Part shown: piece after piece, positions 2,921 to 55,029 of the stretch | How the letters are laid out: each line of letters begins with the position of its first letter | Position numbering within the stretch: position 1 is the stretch's first letter | DNA from: Auricularia sp. M13 | Taxonomy: Eukaryota; Basidiomycota; Agaricomycetes; Auriculariales; Auriculariaceae | Direction: 5' to 3' | Assembly: GCA_037042915.1 (NCBI GenBank) | Contig: CM073200.1 | Location: forward strand, 2,538,832-2,602,831 | DNA length: 64,000 nt | Notes under the pieces: generated by a model | Databases searched by the model: none | What the model was told of the DNA's origin: nothing | Seen by the model: the letters and a program-made list of their open reading frames with translations, nothing else | Translations under genes and position numbers: made by a program

Positions 2921-4184
2921 TACTTCTGTAAAAATGGCGGACGCTCCTGAGCGCTCCTGAGCCGGCGAGAGCCGGAAAGTCCCCTTAACGACCCCGGGTT
3001 TCCTGAGCCGGCCGGAGCGGGCCGTTCAGTGCTCACGCTCCGCTCCTGAGCAGCGCCTGAGCAGCCTGAGCAAATCAACCCCACGTTCTGCTTCTTACTA
3101 TTTCTCTTCATGGGATTATTCAATTGACTCGAATCACGAGATAATGGCAAAGTACGAAAAACGATGTTTATTGACAAATTTATGCTGCACTAAAGAATGT
3201 AGCTACGTGCTGTACTGACCGGCCGGGCGCTGTCAGCCGCAGACGGGTGGTACATGGCGGAACACCACTCCCCCTTGATATCACGCACAAAGCCCTACGG
3301 TTTAAGTGCGTTAGTAGTGTTGCAAGCCGCATGCTGGGGGACGCACGCACCTGTAGCTCGGACGCCGCGCTGCCAAGCCGCGATATAATGACCTGCAATG
3401 TAGCTAAGTAACGTGAAGACAGGTTTTGCAAACATCCCGTACCTCGTAGTACCGTACCGGTGCCCTGCGAAAATAAGTGTCAGAAGAGCACAACAGCGAA
3501 CAGCCAGCCCAGCCCAGAGTGAAGAAGCAGCAGCCTGAATTAGCAAGACCAAGAGTACCAGGCAGACCAGTAGACTGAAACCAAGTCCCAGACCAGCCAA
3601 CAGAGCCACACCGAGCCTTTGAGCCAGAAAAGAGAGCAGGACAGAATGGACGGCAAGGCATGCAGGGAGCAGACAAGGAAGGGCGTGGGATGCAGAACTT
3701 GAAGCCCGCGCAGCCCTTGCAGAAGCTGTTGCGGCGTCTTGAGCCAACGGGGGGTGGAGTTTGGAGCTGGCGCGGCGGGGCGTCTTGAGCTGGCGCGACG
3801 AGAGGTGGGGCGAGGCCAAGTTGCTTTCGAACTCCGCAGAAACCCAACCACCTCCTGATCCGGTGGCTCAACTCGGCCGCGCCGTGCATCCAGGTGCATC
3901 CTTGCACCATCGGGCTGAAGTCAGAAAAAATATGTACGACCTATCTGAGAGTACTCCTGCAGTCTAAATTAACTAGAGGGTTTACATAGCACTGTACCGT
4001 TGTGAGCACAGAGCATGACCTGTTCTAAGACTCGAAGCTGAAAGTACAAGTTGCGAAATGCTCGGGCACTCTGGCGCTTTTGCGCTCCTGAGCACCGCCT
4101 GAGCACGGCGAGAGCCGGAGAGCGCCGAAGCGGAGCCGGAGCGCGGATCACATGCTCAGGAGCAAATCACATTTTACAGAAGTA
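2921..4184. mobile_element. Non-autonomous DNA transposon-like element with 13-bp TIRs
   Basis: The unit is bounded by TACTTCTGTAAAA at 2921 and its exact inverse at 4172-4184. If the outermost TA is counted as target duplication, the ends look like a Tc1/mariner-type MITE. Just inside each end lies a cluster of the heptamer CCTGAGC or its inverse, about eight copies at 2945-3075 and several at 4083-4162, within GC-rich sequence with GAGAGCCGG motifs. The interior has open frames on the minus strand (about 3295-3910) in more than one phase and of biased composition, and none resembles a transposase. It lies 35 bp from the preceding element, so this intergenic region is an insertion hot spot. 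Confidence 0.6.
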
Positions 4185-35359: not shown

Positions 35360-35555
35360 AATTGACGGACTGGTGGAAGGAGGACGGTCACTTATTGAAC
35401 AGTTGGACGAAATATGTATCCGTGGCAAAGTACCTTAGACTACAACAGTTTGTACTCGATAACTTTTACCTGTTTTCTTGAAACACGCAATCGAACCGAG
35501 TTGGTGTAGATTTAATTTGCAGGCTTTACGGTGGAAGATAATCGTTCCAAATCCG

Positions 35556-36530
35556 ATGGACGAAGTTCGTTGGTTGCAGTTGGCGCGATCGCAGTTCGAA
35601 ATGTTTGGAAACCTGCCTCTGGCCACGCCAGAATGGCTCTCAGCTTCATGCCTGTGCGCGTCGTCCAAAAGGCTCGCCCTGTTCCATGTTTTCCTGAGAC
35701 TTCCACAAGGCGAGCTGTCCGTGCGGTCTGCGGCTCTCAAAACGCGAGACTACAACGACGCCGGACTCGTTCCTGATGTCGCCCAGGCGCTCGCTGCGCT
35801 GCTACCATATTACTCCGAATTGGAATACCTAATGGTTAAGCTATGGAACTTTGGAACTAGATCTGTGCGGGGACATCTGCTCTCGCTGTTTCCTCGAACC
35901 TCCTGCTTGTCGCTCACGTCGTTGTTCATCGCCTCGGCATTCGGCAGGCCGACCACTGCGCTCACTGTGCCCGAATTTTTTGAGCTTTTGGCTATTATGC
36001 CCTCCCTCAAGAAGTTGCAGTCCAACAAAACCTATCCACTGGGTGAGAGCGAGTCGGAGGAACGACTCCCTGCACCTGCATGCCACCTTGATGTTGTGGC
36101 ATCCACATTCCTGCATTACACGCTCCTGCTCTCCCGATCCCACGACTCCCTCAGGTGCATGCAAGTCTGCTACTCGTCTGTTCCAGCCGTGGGTGACGAC
36201 CTGCGGCGCGCGCTCGCGCCATGCACGGGACTGCGCCACCTCACGCTCATGGGGAACAGCTTCGACCACGCTGCCGTCATTGCCACATGCCCCCGGGTGA
36301 GCTCGCTCTCGGTGACCGCGGCGCCTGCTTGCGAACAAATGGCCGCGCTGCGAGGTCCGCTGCGCGTCCTCCAGTTGTCCCACTCCTTCGCGCGGGCCAC
36401 GGCGGAGAGCTATGTCGATACAGCATGGTCGCGACTACAAGATACCATTATGAGCGTCTCGAGGCTTACTGAACTACGCTTTTTTTTTCTTTCGACGGAC
36501 CTTGCAGCACGAGACGGAGGGGTATCGTGA
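35556..36530 (+). CDS. LRR/F-box-type protein A with homopolymer frameshift at 3' end
   Basis: First ATG in a long frame open from about 35478. It lacks a visible F-box and consists of leucine-rich strands (LALFHVFLRLP, YYSELEYLMVKL, MPSLKKL, LLLSRSHDSLRCMQ, CTGLRHLTLMGNSFDHAAVI, CPRVSSLSV, RGPLRVLQLSHSF). It aligns along the last 200 residues with the minus-strand gene at 44249-45304. In that paralog the C-terminus is LSRQLQHETEEYRELRALC. Here the equivalent LQHETEGYREVCRVC is encoded just downstream, in a different frame, ending at TGA 36595-36597. The switch sits after nine T residues at 36480-36488; eight would restore the match. It is a truncated gene, a young pseudogene or a sequencing error. 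Confidence 0.6.
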   Translation: MDEVRWLQLARSQFEMFGNLPLATPEWLSASCLCASSKRLALFHVFLRLPQGELSVRSAALKTRDYNDAGLVPDVAQALAALLPYYSELEYLMVKLWNFGTRSVRGHLLSLFPRTSCLSLTSLFIASAFGRPTTALTVPEFFELLAIMPSLKKLQSNKTYPLGESESEERLPAPACHLDVVASTFLHYTLLLSRSHDSLRCMQVCYSSVPAVGDDLRRALAPCTGLRHLTLMGNSFDHAAVIATCPRVSSLSVTAAPACEQMAALRGPLRVLQLSHSFARATAESYVDTAWSRLQDTIMSVSRLTELRFFFLSTDLAARDGGVS

Positions 36531-38574: not shown

Positions 38575-40284
38575 ATGCAATCCCTTTGCGAGCTGGAAGA
38601 CGATGCCGTCACGAGCTTGCGCAAGCTTGCCTCTGCTCTGTACGACCAAAAGTATGCAACGCGCCTCGAGAATGGCGGTTGACCCGACATAGCTGATGCA
38701 TGTGGCAGCCCGAACCCCGAGTGGTGGAAGGCACTGGACCAGAAGGTGTCTGCGCTCGTTGGCCTCGCTTTACGGCCCATTGCTCGCTCGGCCAATGCGC
38801 TCTCGAAAATTAACACCCTACCGCCGGAGCTCTTACAACATATTGTGTCTTACCTTCCGCTGCGCGACGCCCGTCGATCAGTGTCGGTTTGCAGCAAATG
38901 GCGCTATATTTTGCTGGACACGCCGCGCCTGTGGAGCCGACTCAGCATGGTGTTCATTCCGGCCGCATGCCAGCACTGGTTTCCCGCGCTGCAGGCATTT
39001 CTGAACCGCAGCGGAAGCGTTCCGCTCGAGCTGGAGCTGGGCTTCCAACATCTCACTACTCTTGACCTGGCTGAAAAGGCTGACCTCAGATCTGCATTCG
39101 AGAGTGTAGGCGGATTGGTTGCGGCACACGTTCATCGCGCGAAGTCTATCTCCTTCAGCATTCCTTGCCTGTCGACTTGGGACGACGTCCTCTCCGAGCC
39201 TGCGCCGTCCTTGGAACTCTTTCGCCTCCACATCTACGACGGCGACGATTTTGTGACTCTCCGAGCTGATTTATTCGCCAATTCCGCACCAAAACTACGC
39301 TCCCTGAGCCTCTCCGGGGTCTTGTTACCCACTACGACCTGTCCCGCCCTGCAGTTGGTCACCGAGTTTACCGAGGAAACCCCCGAAACCCGCGAATACG
39401 CGGGCAATATCGACAATAGTTCGGCTCTCCCTGCTCTACGCTGCCTAACGCTTCCGAGAAGGTCTCGTGTTTTACGTTGGCCGGTTCTCTCTCGTCCAGT
39501 AGCCAGGGTCAGATTGCGGGCAGACACATCGTGGAAAACCCTGAGGTTGTTTTCCAGCAATACCTCTTTGTGCCTTGCCGTGGCGCCCGGCTCCTCCTAC
39601 ACGTCTTCGTACGAGTCCTCCCTCACCATCGCAAAAGTTGTGTCCCGCGTAGTCGGCGTAAATACAATGGACATCCGCTTCAGCAACTGCCCCCTGCAGG
39701 ACATCTCTTCCTACCGTTCTATCTACTCCATCGCCCTTGACGGGGAAATCATCGCATTGGGTTTTGCAGAGCAGCTGACAGATCAAGATCTATGGTCTTC
39801 AAGCACGGTGCGCTGTCTGCGCAATCTTGCAATACCATATGCTGTCTGGTGCCTCGTCGCGCGATACAGCCTTCCGCCTTTGGAGAGTCTTACACTTTAT
39901 CTGACACGAGTTATCGATGGTGTGACGCGAGGCCCTTCCGTCAGAGAGTTCCCGCTTGAGACAGTCGTCTCCCGCAAGCCACCGTGCGCCGTGTCGACAT
40001 TCCATCTCGTTCGTGTCGGCAGCTATCCCGAACTTCCGACAATGAATTACCGGGCATTACTCAATTTCATCTCGCGGTCGTTCCATTTGCCGGTTTCGAA
40101 ACTAGTTGTGCATGGTTGGAAGGTTTTCAATATGCAGACTGACGAACCCAGTAGCTCGGAAATCGTGGTAGACGTCGACATTATCGTAGAGTCACAACGT
40201 GGATGGCGGTACGAAGCCGAGCCATGGACCTGGGATATAGTCGATGACAAGAAGGCTCTTCATGTAGGCCACTTCCAGCAGTGA
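38575..40284 (+). CDS. F-box protein
   Basis: Exon 1 (38575-38651, MQSLCELEDDAVTSLRKLAS) joins exon 2 (38709-40284) over a 57-bp intron with a GT-AG pair and matching phase, giving about 550 residues. An F-box stands near residue 65: INTLPPELLQHIVSYLPLRD followed by RRSVSVCSKWRYILLDTPRLW, including the LP..L and W residues that bind Skp1. The remaining 450 residues are leucine-rich with irregular LRR-like strands (LRSLSLSGVLLP, LPALRCLTLP, LPPLESLTLYL), typical of the large basidiomycete F-box expansions. Its probable role is substrate receptor of an SCF ubiquitin ligase, with the target unknown. Exon 2 is a single long frame. Confidence 0.85.
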
Positions 40285-41014: not shown

Positions 41015-43548
41015 ATGGCCAGCGCCCACAAGGCCCTCATTGTCTCGCACCAGGACCATTTGCTGCGCGTCGGGGGGCTGCAGCAGGGCAGGATTGAGGT
41101 CCGCATCATGTTTTGCCCCAGCCGAGCACTGAGCATACTTCACTTGCAGCATGTTAACCTCGCCAGCAACCGGGCCGCCGTCTTCACACACATCTCTGGC
41201 AAGCAGAAGAAGAGCGTCGCGCTCGACCTTAGCGACCCTATTTCCGTCGTGCAGTCCTGGCAGAACACGGACGACGGCGCGTTCAACGCACAATCCATGC
41301 TTGTTGTTCTTGTCGGAGGTATATTAATTATATTAAATATCCCGGATCATCCGTACTCACCCGAGACGACAGCCAAGGGCGTCCTGTATGTCTGTGACGC
41401 AGAGAAGGGTACCAAGCTCGAGTCGTACCGCATGAACGACGACGTCGAGCTGGTGCGCTGGATCAGCGCCCACACCGTGGCCGTCGTCACGCGCAGCGCC
41501 GTCTGGCACTGGCGGGTCACCCGCAACCGCTGTGGCCGGCCCGAGGAATGGTTTGTCCGCGACCCTGCGCTGGGCAATGCGACCGTCGTCGACTACCGCG
41601 TGTGCCGCGACGGCGCCTGGTGCGCGCTGATGGCGCACGAGCCCAACATCGACGCGCGCGAGCATATCCCTGCTGAAGGGCTCGTCCAGCTCTTCTGCCG
41701 CGAGGCCGGCGTGAGCAAACTCGTGGAAGCCCACGCGCTTGACCTAGTCGAGTCGGATTTTACTGGCTTCCCGCGTGGCATGACCCTGTGCATATACGCA
41801 AAGCGCACCCTGATGTCTTCCGAGGTACTTTGGTGCATTTTCGCGACCAGAAGAAGCTGACGACAAGTCTTCCAGCTCCGCATCACCGAGATCAACCAGG
41901 AAGGCGAATCCGCGTTTGGCCACCGAGTTTTCCAGCTAAACTTCGCCCCCGATGCGTTTGACGACTACCCACTCTCATTACACGTTTCGCAGCCGCACGG
42001 CATCATATTTCTCACCACGGCAATGGGCTACGTGCACCTGTACGACATGGAAAGCGGGACGCAGCTTCTACGCCAACGCATAACGCATCGCAACGTCCTT
42101 ACGACAGCCCGAAACGAAGACGGTTCGGGCATCATTCTCATTGACGAGGACCACCGCGCCAGCAGCGTCGTCCTCAACGACGAACACTTCATTCAATATC
42201 TCCTAAACAATAACTTCCAGAACATGCAGGTCTTGTTCCGCATCGCCGACAGGAATCAAGATTGGAAACTCTTCGCGAAACATCATCTGCAGCTCAGCGC
42301 TGCGCGCCATGAAGAGGCGGATGCGTACATGAAGGCCAACTGGTGCTCGTTCGACACCTCCCAGCCCGTCGAGTGAGCATCTTGCAGTTGTTTTTGAAAA
42401 TCACCCGTCTCAACTCTCAGCAGTGAAACTGGTCGTCTCAGTTCGAGGCTGTGGGCGGGCGACGGCTCTCTCGGCGTCACAGACACCGCGGCGTATACTT
42501 TGCGCGGCATCGTCCTCTTTTTGTGCGGCCTTCTCGAGGACAGCATGCAGTACGCTCGAGAAGCGCTCAAGACGAATCCCGATGATCGTCATGCACGTAT
42601 TCTGCTATGGCGTGCGGAGGACGTGATCGCGGCCAAGGCTGAAGGGAACGCAGCCTACGGTAAGGCGCAATACTCCACCGCGATCGAGTGCTACAGCAAG
42701 GCCCTCAAAGTGCGTCTCGCCTTTTTCTTCATTGGAAGAGACAGATGACTAATCCCATTTTTCAGCAAATTGGCGAGCAGGAGGAGGAAGCCTACGGCGG
42801 TGTCATTCGCGCCGTCATCCTCAACAACCGCGCCATTGCCTATCATCGTGTAGGCGACCAATTTTGCTATGACCAAGCGATATTCTAACGTATTTTCCAG
42901 TCTGGGAAACATAAGGAGGCCATCACGGACGCCACGACGTCGCTCGACCTTGTACCGAATAACTGGAAAGCCCTAAGAACGCGCGGGAGCGGGCACATTG
43001 CGTTGCGCAACTTCGACCAGGCCGTGACCGACATTCTCCACGCGATGAAACACTGCCCGCATGTTGAAGAGAAAGCCAAACTGCAAGCAGAGCTCACTGA
43101 GGCCCAGCGCGGGCGCGGCTTCAGCAACGGCCCTGGTCTTGCACGACCCGTCTCAGCCATGGCGCGTGGGACGACGCCCACCATGCAGCCCTTGAAAGAT
43201 TATTACCGCATCCTAAGTGCGTCCGATCGCGCCGTATGACCTTGACTGATCCGCGTACTCAGATGTTCATCGTATGGCGTCCGACATCGAAATCCGGCAG
43301 GCATACCGGCAGCGGACCATTCAACTGCATCCGCGAAACGTGCGTGTGTTCTGCGGAACGAGTGGCACACTCGGCTGAAAGTTTATAGGGTGGCAACCCG
43401 GAGACGTACAAGCTGCTGGAAGAGGCGCATCGCACGCTGAGCAACTCGACCGCTCGCCGCCAGTGAGCTCCTCAGTGCTCTCCGGCGCCTCTGCAGTGCT
43501 AACGCGTCCGTGATCAGGTACGATGCGATGCTAAACATCCAGCTTTGA
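41015..43548 (+). CDS. Clathrin N-terminal propeller - TPR - J-like domain fusion protein
   Basis: Ten exons (41015-41098, 41150-41318, 41373-41824, 41876-42372, 42421-42709, 42766-42849, 42901-43216, 43263-43339, 43389-43462, 43518-43548), all GT-AG with closing phases, give 690 residues. Residues 1-330 follow the clathrin heavy chain N-terminal beta-propeller in order (SYRMNDDVELVRWISAHTVA, AVWHWRV, VQLFCREAGVSKLVEAHA, HGIIFLTTAMGYVHLYDMES). Residues 405-600 match the second TPR half of DNAJC7 (GIVLFLCGLLEDSMQYAREA, KAEGNAAYGKAQYSTAIECY, NNRAIAYHRSGKHKEAITDA). The end is a J-type domain (DYYRILNVHRMASDIEIRQA) where HPD is replaced by HPR at 653-655. Clathrin uncoating uses J-proteins (auxilin, yeast Swa2 with TPR plus J), so a role in coat dynamics is inferred. 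Without HPD it should not stimulate Hsp70. Confidence 0.85.
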
Positions 43549-44248: not shown

Positions 44249-45304
44249 TCAGAAATATACTACACGCGGTGGAGGAACGGTAGACAGGTGGATGCGGCGC
44301 TCCTTGCAAAGAGCACGCAGCTCGCGATACTCCTCGGTCTCGTGCTGCAACTGCCTAGAGAGGAAGTTGAAGCAGATGGTCCCAAGCGAGGGCGTTTCAG
44401 CGATAACATCGCGCAGCCGCCTTGAGACAAGGGCGACGTACTGCTCGGGTGTGTCGCTGAAGCAATTGGCGAGCTCCAGAGAACAGAGCGGCGCATGGAG
44501 TGCAGCCATCTCCGCCTCAGTGGGCGCGGATGTGAGCATCAAGGATTGCAGACGCGGGCAGGCGGAGATGATGGGCTCGTTGTCGAAGCAGTTGCCTTCG
44601 AGACTTAGATGGCGGACTTGTGTACACTGCAGGAGCGCCTCGCGAACGTCGTTGGCCACTTCTGGGTCGAAGATCCAGTGCAACCCGAGGTGCTCGAGTG
44701 TGTCATGTGAGCGCGAGAGCAGCAGAGGATAGTGTCGAAAGTTTATATCCGCGTCGTCATTTACGACGAGATGCGTAAGGCGGCAGGCCGGCTGGAGCAG
44801 CGACCGCACATACAAATCTCTGGCGAAGGAGTCGCCATACAGATCATCGGGCATCTCGAGCGTGCCAAAGGCCAGTTTCTTGAGAGCAGGCATCATAGAC
44901 AACATCTCGAAGAAGGCGCCGAGTGCCAGCGCGGCGGCGGATTCGCATCCAAGGCAGAGTGTCGTCAGGTTAGAAAGAGCCACTAGAGGTGGAAGGTTCT
45001 CCAGCACAGAATCATAGTGCCAGCGCCTCAGATTAAGTACTCGTAGGTTCGGAAAGCGCGTCACGAGCATGCGAAGCCTGTCGTCGGCGGCATCATGCGC
45101 ACGGTCTAATGGGCCGATTTCGACGTTGACCTCAGTCACAGCGCGCGCGAGGGAGGCGGTGACGGCGGCGAGTATGGCAGTATCGAGACTTTTGATATGA
45201 AAGGTAATTCGGGCCGGCCGTGTGCGCATGGTTCGTGCCAGAAACCAAATCAATCGGCCGCGACAACTCCGCTCCGGCTCGAACTGTACAGTGAATGGCG
45301 ACAT
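44249..45304 (-). CDS. LRR/F-box-type protein B
   Basis: Single long frame of about 351 residues from ATG 45304 (MSPFTVQFEPERSC). No N-terminal F-box is seen. Regular leucine-rich strands run through it: FPNLRVLNLRRWHYDSVL, LSNLTTLCLGCES, MPALKKLAFGTLEM, LLLSRSHDTLEHLGLHW, CTQVRHLSLEGNCFDNEPII, CPRLQSLMLTSAPTEAEMAA, LCSLELANCF. The C-terminus is LSRQLQHETEEYRELRALC followed by a short tail. It is the intact relative of the frameshifted gene at 35556 and shows what that gene lost. LRR proteins of this kind are usually protein-interaction receptors in basidiomycete F-box families, but the F-box itself is absent or on an unseen exon. Confidence 0.7.
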   Translation of the reverse strand: MSPFTVQFEPERSCRGRLIWFLARTMRTRPARITFHIKSLDTAILAAVTASLARAVTEVNVEIGPLDRAHDAADDRLRMLVTRFPNLRVLNLRRWHYDSVLENLPPLVALSNLTTLCLGCESAAALALGAFFEMLSMMPALKKLAFGTLEMPDDLYGDSFARDLYVRSLLQPACRLTHLVVNDDADINFRHYPLLLSRSHDTLEHLGLHWIFDPEVANDVREALLQCTQVRHLSLEGNCFDNEPIISACPRLQSLMLTSAPTEAEMAALHAPLCSLELANCFSDTPEQYVALVSRRLRDVIAETPSLGTICFNFLSRQLQHETEEYRELRALCKERRIHLSTVPPPRVVYF

Positions 45305-46498
45305 TCCCCACACGCCGGAGAGAGGTATCACCGCATTGACCTTACCACGATGCCGAATGAGTTTCCCGCTTTACCAAAATAAATCTGATGAAGAGTACAG
45401 TAGGGTTGGATCCCTTTTTGTCGCAACTTGCTGCTATAAAAAACCATTTATCATATTTTACGTGCCTGCCTGGCTTTCCTATCGTGCTGAGAATAGTGAC
45501 AGCGTGTGCGCTGAGTACAGCACAGGTCGGTCAAGCCAGGGCCACCAGTCCGTATGCAGAATTTTGCAGCACGTGGAATGCTTGACCTGAGTCATCACGC
45601 TGCATGTTAGGCTCTGTGTGCAGCTCAGGCGATCGGAAAGGGGCGGGATTGACGAGTGAGATTCGGTACACAATCATCGACAATGTTGTTCGGTGCCAGG
45701 CCGCCTCTGGCTTCTCATACCAAGTGCAAGCTCAGTACACGCTGGTCAGCCGACAGCTTCACATCTTCAGTGTCTCACCTCTTCAAATCGAGCCACAATG
45801 GAATTTCTAGACGCGGACGACGCAAACACCGCGCTTCGAGGGTGTGTGTCCAGTGAACACCAGCTGGGCCGCTCAAAGCGCTGACAAGCAGCCGACTTCT
45901 TGCGGTATCGGAATGCCGAAAGGTCGACGAGTGAGGCGCCTTTTGTACAATGTGAGATTTGCAGAGTTGTGCCGCGAGAACACCGTGGCATGGGGTTTGA
46001 AGACCGGAGAAGGGGGCGATTACAGTCAGCCATGTCTATAGGCTTCGGAGACTTGCCGCCAAGGTGCTGCTGCTCTCAGCGTGGATGTTGGCCCTTGGAG
46101 AGATGCGCGCGGAGGCGGTTTGTCGGGAGCGTTCTCAGCTTCGGCGTGAGAGAAGGGGGGTCCTACGGTGCCTGCATGGTGTGGGATGATACGGAAATGA
46201 ATTGGTGCTAAACAACACGTCGATCCTGCAGCCTGGCGATGCTGAGAATTCCAAAAATACAGGCCTAGGCCTATTTATATGCTCTCACGGGCAGCGACTG
46301 GGTAAAAATAGCGGCGGGTGGCAGAGGACGGTGGCAGGGACGGCGAAAATTGATTCCCAGAACTGACGTCGTCGTGGTGTGCCGCGGTTCCGCTGCCGAG
46401 CTGCCGACTATTGCCGCCGGGCGGACTCTGAAGGTCTTAAAATAGCGGCTGCTGCGTCTTTCGAGTCCTGGTGCACCCCAGCTCGCTACACCGTCAGG
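45305..46498. other. Intergenic, no supported gene
   Basis: About 1.2 kb between divergent genes, so it includes both promoters. Short open frames around 45600-46210 have no recognisable product. Confidence 0.4.
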
Positions 46499-54172: not shown

Positions 54173-55029
54173 ATGCACGCTCTACTCGCCGCTCGCCAGG
54201 CGCCAATGCTGCCGCCGCATCTGCTGCACCTCTGCTATCTGTTCTCGACGACAACCAGTGCAGCGCACGAATTATACCCATGGCCCAAGGGCCGCCGCCC
54301 CACCGCCCACCAAATCTTTCACTTCAGAGACGGCGCCCGGCCGTCCCAGGCAGAGATCAAAGCGCGCTGTATGCTCCTTGCCACTATGGCTCTTGTCACG
54401 ACCACTTATTGGGCGCAGACTATGAGCTCGTGCGCGTGCACCATCCGGACACTTCGACGCTCCCAGCCGACAAGGCCAGAGCGCGCTTCCAGGCACTGGC
54501 AGAAGCGTACGAAACGCTCAGACACCCCAATCGACGCCGCTGGGAAGAAATGATGCGCCAGCGCCCGCTGACGCCCGAAGAGCAGGCTGAGCTCGCCCGA
54601 CGGCGAGAATATCACAGCGCCAAGCGCGCGGCCGACGCAGGCACATCGAGTGCCCACGGCGAGAAGCCTCCGCTCAGTGCGCGGCCCGAGTTCGTCTGGG
54701 GCGAGAGCCTCGTTATCTCCGTCGGCACACTCGTGAGTGTCCGAAGATTTCTGCTGTAAATGTGCTGGTGCTCATTACATGGGACGCAGCTATTTCTTGC
54801 GTTCGCGTTCCCATATGGCATCCTACGCCACAACACTGCGCTTGCCGCCGACCTCCAGGGGACCAAGAACGAGATGGCACGTAAAGCTCTCGAGGATGCC
54901 GAGGAGAAACGCAAAGAAAAGGGCAAAGCCCGCAGGGACGAGGTCAGGAAGATGCTCGAGGACATGCGCGCCCGCGAAGCGGAAGAGACTCGCCTCGCTG
55001 CGCCCGAATCGACACCACCGCCGAGGTAA
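54173..55029 (+). CDS. Membrane-anchored J-domain protein (probably mitochondrial)
   Basis: Exons 54173-54368, 54419-54732 and 54790-55029 give about 250 residues. The N-terminus (MHALLAARQAP ... HLCYLFSTTT) is uncharged-to-basic and hydroxylated, like a mitochondrial presequence. A J-domain follows: TAHQIFHFRDGARPSQAEIK, then ARYYELVRVHHPDTS with an intact HPD, and FQALAEAYETLRHPNRRRWE. The first intron splits the J-domain and splicing restores it exactly. One transmembrane helix (LVISVGTLLFLAFAFPYGIL) spans the second intron, and the C-terminal tail is a charged coiled coil (EEKRKEKGKARRDEVRKML). It should recruit a matrix or organelle Hsp70. A decayed inverted copy lies at about 55890-56110. 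Confidence 0.82.

Follow-up and report, generated by a model that had tools for sequence, protein, structure and literature searches.

A putative chimeric gene of Auricularia sp. M13 combining a diverged clathrin-type propeller with a TPR/J-domain module that carries HPR in place of HPD

A ten-exon gene model in the window

We examined a stretch of 64,000 nucleotides from the basidiomycete Auricularia sp. M13 (the window), which corresponds to C8:2538832-2602831, where C8 is the contig that holds it (CM073200.1 of assembly GCA_037042915.1; the assembly searched comprises 52.1 Mb in 14 contigs). At window positions 41015-43548 on the forward strand (C8:2579846-2582379) lies a gene model of 10 exons and 690 residues, hereafter the fusion gene. 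At the level of sequence, the model shows the 5' piece of what would be an old duplicate of the clathrin heavy chain gene, introns included, joined in frame over a good intron to the 3' piece of a likewise old duplicate of a co-chaperone gene with tetratricopeptide repeats (TPRs) and a J-domain. An earlier interpretation made from the letters alone (the sequence-only reading) had proposed one gene of 690 residues here, with exons ending at 42372 and starting at 42421 that close in phase across a 48-bp intron; the ten-exon model closes in exactly this manner, in phase 2, and yields a product of that length. All nine introns are of the GT-AG type and measure 46-56 bp each, and the spliced model contains neither a stop nor a frame break ahead of its TGA stop codon at 43546-43548. 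The sole DNA match of the whole coding region in the genome is itself.

The first four exons (41015-41098, 41150-41318, 41373-41824 and 41876-42372) encode residues 1-400, a diverged N-terminal propeller of the clathrin heavy chain followed by a linker. They are separated by intron 1 (41099-41149, phase 0, with the unusual donor GTCCGC), intron 2 (41319-41372, phase 1) and intron 3 (41825-41875, phase 0). Intron 4 (42373-42420, 48 bp, phase 2) is the junction intron, and beyond it exon 5 (42421-42709) encodes the end of one TPR unit and the start of the last TPR domain, which by comparison with human DNAJC7 we take to be TPR2b. The remainder of that domain, a linker and the start of the J-domain are encoded by exons 6 and 7 (42766-42849 and 42901-43216), and exons 8 to 10 (43263-43339, 43389-43462 and 43518-43548) supply the J-domain with HPR for HPD, a short tail and the stop. 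An earlier 707-residue model in which intron 1 was read as coding, or its 417-residue clathrin half, underlies four of the results below: the Pfam scan, the best clathrin match in the PDB, the E-values of the matches to the strain's other clathrin gene, and the count of 78/202 conserved columns.

The clathrin half

Residues 1-400 matched clathrin heavy chain N-terminal domains in the PDB (phmmer; 18 distinct sequences, best E 1.4e-45, human residues 38-368), so that the clathrin N-terminal propeller named in the sequence-only reading is borne out as a strongly diverged domain with homology over nearly its whole length. A genome search with the clathrin half gave 5 matches (3 candidates scored), of which three were to itself and two fell at C8:3768693-3769642 (E 2.0e-22 and 6.0e-18). 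We take the latter locus to be the strain's normal clathrin heavy chain gene, because clathrin legs lie downstream there: 7 of the 9 genome matches to the leg repeat PF00637 belong to it, and the other two lie on contigs C4 and C5, with none in the window. The fusion is 30% identical to this gene (116/386) and matches human clathrin at 98/326 positions, compared with 204/329 between the normal gene and the human protein. Past the propeller, the fusion protein continues into the TPR/J module and not into clathrin legs, and therefore should form no triskelion. No leftover second leg gene from the duplication was identified: of the two outlying PF00637 matches, the one on C4 barely passes the cut-off and the one on C5 fails it. 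We note in passing that, in this assembly, the normal clathrin gene contains a frame break near a run of C (L026 ~3085-3105), perhaps a sequencing error.

Intron positions speak to how the clathrin piece arose. The three introns that precede the linker in the normal gene recur in the fusion gene at the same places and in the same phases (0, 1 and 0; the phase of the third was taken in the local frame, since the normal exon carries the frame break), and the clathrin piece therefore derives from DNA and not from a retrocopy. No intron of the fusion gene coincides in place with the fourth intron of the normal gene, which follows AANSPR; the junction donor of the fusion gene is situated some codons downstream of that place.

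The TPR/J half and its parent

Pfam matches identify the second half of the protein as a TPR and J-domain module (TPR_2, E 1.1e-16; DnaJ, E 1.6e-14). Its best match elsewhere in the genome (E 9.6e-43) is a gene on the reverse strand at ~C8:2531581-2533402, about 46 kb upstream of the fusion, which we refer to as the own TPR/J gene, and a paralog is present at ~C8:2259335-2260926 (L028:4335-5926). The fusion is identical to the own copy at 103/257 positions (40%) and to the paralog at 95/245, and the two latter share 162/285. The co-chaperone part of the fusion is shortened: it begins at about residue 242 of the 551 of the own copy, with the first residues aligning poorly, and a tblastn search with the whole own protein reached the window from residue 254 onward only. 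A search with the N-terminal half of that protein gave 12 matches, 0 of them in the window, so that no remnant of the missing part was found beside the fusion. The retained part starts beside an intron that is in phase 2 in the own gene, the paralog and the fusion alike, the acceptor of the junction intron lying about one codon from that of the own gene (the alignment is uncertain here). A second intron, between exons 6 and 7 (AYHR|SGKH), is common in place and phase to the fusion and the paralog and is missing from the own gene.

The sequence-only reading had called this module DNAJC7-like. The TPR and J-domain assignments stand; the module is truncated, and the PDB matches weaken the name DNAJC7. 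Among the PDB matches of the own gene the best was DNAJC3 (E 2.5e-28, residues 67-498), with no DNAJC7 chain among the best 60/70, and the best matches of the fusion's TPR/J half were SPAG1 and DNAJC3. We nevertheless name the parent DNAJC7-like, on the basis of its multiple TPRs, its C-terminal J-domain and its lack of a signal peptide (judged by eye). In common with DNAJC7, the fusion has a TPR domain followed by a C-terminal J-domain, K and N residues in the TPR pocket, and the phase-2 intron of the own copy before the retained part. It differs in that it lacks a counterpart to the first ~241 residues of the own copy, so that the layout of three TPR domains is not present, and in that it has HPR, no G/F-like tail, and a clathrin propeller in front. 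The own protein resembles DNAJC3 (p58IPK) in being matched best by it, but begins with MTKKKSKK and has no signal peptide by eye, unlike DNAJC3, a protein of the lumen of the endoplasmic reticulum (ER).

One gene or two

The case for a single gene turns on the start of the TPR frame. This frame has stops at 42374 and 42395 and its first ATG only at 42545, while homology to the own TPR/J gene begins at 42491 (tblastn) and the conserved LRGIVLF lies at 42500, 15 residues ahead of that ATG. Because the TPR homology starts ahead of the one ATG that could serve as its start codon, two separate genes are disfavoured, and the TPR stretch before 42545 would be best explained as spliced from upstream, where the coding sequence is clathrin. 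We therefore regard 41015-43548 as likely to be one gene.

The junction intron itself scored 13.84, within the range of 8.5-21.5 of the training introns (n=17, 8 of them from the fusion gene itself), and ranked first of the 13 candidates that keep the frame, with its score reached in 35 of 2000 dinucleotide shuffles. This result is supportive of splicing and not decisive. Alternative donors at 42343 and 42325 also keep the frame to the same acceptor, with scores of 13.03 and 12.63, and the exact residues at the junction are therefore uncertain; alternative splicing at this place is possible.

A different explanation is that two gene remnants merely adjoin here, namely a truncated clathrin copy, with the TGA at 42374 as its end, and a TPR/J copy that has lost its 5' part, one or both of them recently dead or transcribed separately. 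An in-frame TGA does stand directly past the donor, the ATG at 42545 could begin a shorter TPR/J protein, both halves are strongly diverged duplicates, and a GT-AG pair that keeps the frame, of one quality or another, arises readily by chance (1942/2000 dinucleotide shuffles contained one). This account provides no ATG from which the TPR homology ahead of 42545 could begin, however, and has to accommodate nine usable introns and zero frame breaks across 690 codons; we consider it rather unlikely. An assembly error that brought two distant loci together is extremely improbable: the frame break in the normal clathrin gene indicates that the assembly is not free of errors, but the halves of the fusion are only 30-40% identical to the other copies, have no second DNA match, meet within a usable intron, and we found no similar sequence at which a misjoin could have occurred.

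Identity to the own copies by codon position was 0.477/0.575/0.381 for the clathrin half and 0.490/0.615/0.346 for the TPR/J half, such that both halves of the predicted gene show the pattern of protein-coding change.

Origin of the fusion

Taken together with a single gene, these comparisons suggest an origin in which both parents were duplicated, the fusion gene, the normal clathrin gene, the own TPR/J gene and the paralog all lying on C8, and the duplicates were joined in DNA, with a break that may have fallen within an intron of the co-chaperone gene or next to one. Because the phase 2 of the junction intron matches that of the co-chaperone copies, the joining probably took place through an intron. 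Capture by a mobile element was considered and rejected: the sole DNA match of the fusion gene is itself (in a search that skips simple repeats), and its surroundings contain 0 direct repeats and no more than 4 inverted pairs, 14-20 nt in length. Full-text literature searches, with no proteome search behind them, found no paper describing this domain pair.

Altered sites in both halves

We compared the propeller with the adaptor-site residues given in PMC5182127 (Table 2 and text), nine of which fall in the aligned human range (89, 91, 152, 154, 164, 183, 192, 296 and 297). The fusion has Y, C, T, V, W, L, K, Q and R at these positions, and thus keeps 3/9 (W164, L183 and R297), as against 9/9 in the normal clathrin of the strain. 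The clathrin box is changed from Q89/F91 to Y/C, the W box from Q152/I154 to T/V, and Q192 of the arrestin box to K. F9 and E11 are outside the aligned range, where the alignment is poor, and appear there as H and D; a gap stands opposite Q14, and Q16/N17 were unmapped. At eight further positions that we take to belong to adaptor sites (64, 80, 82, 87, 96, 98, 188 and 191), the fusion has S, V, L, V, G, K, A and S, keeping 3/8 where the normal clathrin keeps 6/8. Over all columns in which normal and human clathrin agree, 78/202 are kept in the fusion (older model), and the adaptor sites are, on this alignment, conserved no better than the average column. The cargo- and adaptor-binding head that had been proposed for this protein accordingly found no support in the sequence.

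The J-domain has HPR at residues 653-655, as the sequence-only reading had noticed, and this loss of HPD lends sequence support to its suggestion that the domain would not act as an activator of Hsp70. Outside HPD, the J-domain is kept at a rate like that of the TPR part (17/34 vs 59/114 columns). With the five pocket residues of HOP as the reference, K473, N477, N518 and K548 of the fusion correspond to K8, N12, N43 and K73 of HOP, so that four of the five pocket residues are kept. PMC8429438 lists K260 and N264 of human DNAJC7 among six residues that were mutated jointly to disrupt tau binding.

According to a 2026 review (PMC13254874), HPD is essential to the stimulation of Hsp70, a change of D to N alone abolishing it, and J-proteins without HPD are termed type IV, with their significance unresolved. 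The fusion fits the definition given there, having a recognisable J-domain and a non-conservative change of HPD, and would fall outside classes A-C of J-domain proteins, for which HPD is a criterion. It shares these two features with type IV proteins such as Pam16; our literature searches found no type IV J-protein with a clathrin propeller. The paralog at ~C8:2259335-2260926, which has its own N-terminal TPRs and an open C-terminal half (start codon not modelled), has a J-domain that lacks the HPD stretch by an in-frame deletion (SRAFKRASNKFKLV), apparently a loss independent of that in the fusion, within the same family and genome.

Proposed function

Our preferred interpretation, to which we assign a probability of about 0.5, is that a single chimeric gene joined through an intron encodes a cytosolic pseudo-J protein with a propeller of changed specificity, which would serve as a chaperone-tethered scaffold or as a modulator of a normal co-chaperone, and not in coat removal. 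The TPR pocket may still hold the acidic tails of chaperones (EEVD of Hsp70/Hsp90) or a client, the J-domain would be unable to trigger Hsp70, and the propeller, with its clathrin-adaptor sites largely changed, may be a protein-binding head with new partners. As a functional reading of the fusion product, this is a weak one.

Several observations weigh against this proposal. The fusion protein matched 15 Pfam families at E up to 1 with no clathrin family among them, and PF01394, searched against the genome at E up to 10, matched 4 times, each time within the normal clathrin gene and never in the window; the propeller is therefore strongly diverged. The coding pattern of the two halves is that of past selection on each half separately, and not on the joined product. 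Because DNAJC3 is its best PDB match, the TPR/J parent may be nearer to DNAJC3 than to DNAJC7, and DNAJC3 is a lumenal ER protein and not a cytosolic EEVD binder. At the fifth pocket position (R77 of HOP) the fusion has T, which the own TPR/J gene and the paralog have as well, and the conservation of the TPR part, at 59/114 of the columns common to the two other copies, is average. The EEVD reading of the fusion's TPRs is weakened by PMC8429438, according to which DnaJC7 is a weak binder of EEVD peptides and departs from HOP at residues of this kind. Finally, no relative with the same domain pair was confirmed, where the 690-residue protein gave 13 pattern hits against prokaryote genome contigs and the TPR/J half 5 against viral contigs, although this is not evidence of absence.

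The kept pocket and the lost HPD could also make the protein a decoy, a role that the sequence-only reading had raised, or a dominant-negative of the step between co-chaperone and Hsp70, with TPRs that compete for EEVD tails and an HPR J-domain that fails to stimulate the ATPase. In line with this, PMC13254874 states that one TPR domain of DNAJC7 must bind the EEVD motif for its J-domain to engage Hsc70. Such a decoy would leave the propeller unexplained, and the J-domain outside HPD is kept as well as the TPR part; we hold it to be quite improbable. The sequence-only reading had pointed instead to the removal of clathrin coats, and a cochaperone for uncoating or adaptor clearing would indeed recall auxilin/Swa2, likewise a J-protein tied to clathrin. 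Auxilin, however, attaches to clathrin cages and acts together with Hsc70, whereas the fusion has a built-in clathrin part and no HPD. Coat removal would require HPD along with binding to adaptors or to clathrin, and the sequence does not support it. The absence of both clathrin legs and HPD makes uncoating in the manner of auxilin unlikely, and with the residues of the clathrin, W and arrestin boxes changed as well (W164, L183 and R297 kept), uncoating or adaptor clearing appears very improbable. The preferred interpretation, that of a tethered scaffold or modulator, can be extended to a conserved and expressed fungal class, born by exon shuffling, of pseudo-J proteins that are tethered to Hsp70/Hsp90 and targeted by a clathrin-type propeller as their head, and that would connect the chaperone network with membrane-coat motifs and not stimulate ATPase; this broader proposal is speculative and, in our view, unlikely.

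If expressed, the fusion gene would be a clean example of a new gene made from two housekeeping genes joined via introns, in which key functional residues from either parent have changed. It is relevant, too, to a question posed in PMC13254874, which is whether changes of HPD in J-proteins are accidental or selected: of the three such TPR/J genes found in this genome, two have lost HPD in different ways with their frames still open.

Neighbouring features

The window holds another J-domain at 54421-54540 (Pfam DnaJ, E 3.7e-5), in which HPD is present by eye. Long open frames lie around the fusion gene at 35463-36530 and 38683-40284 on the forward strand and at 44249-45370 on the reverse strand, and have, by eye, the look of F-box or leucine-rich-repeat proteins.
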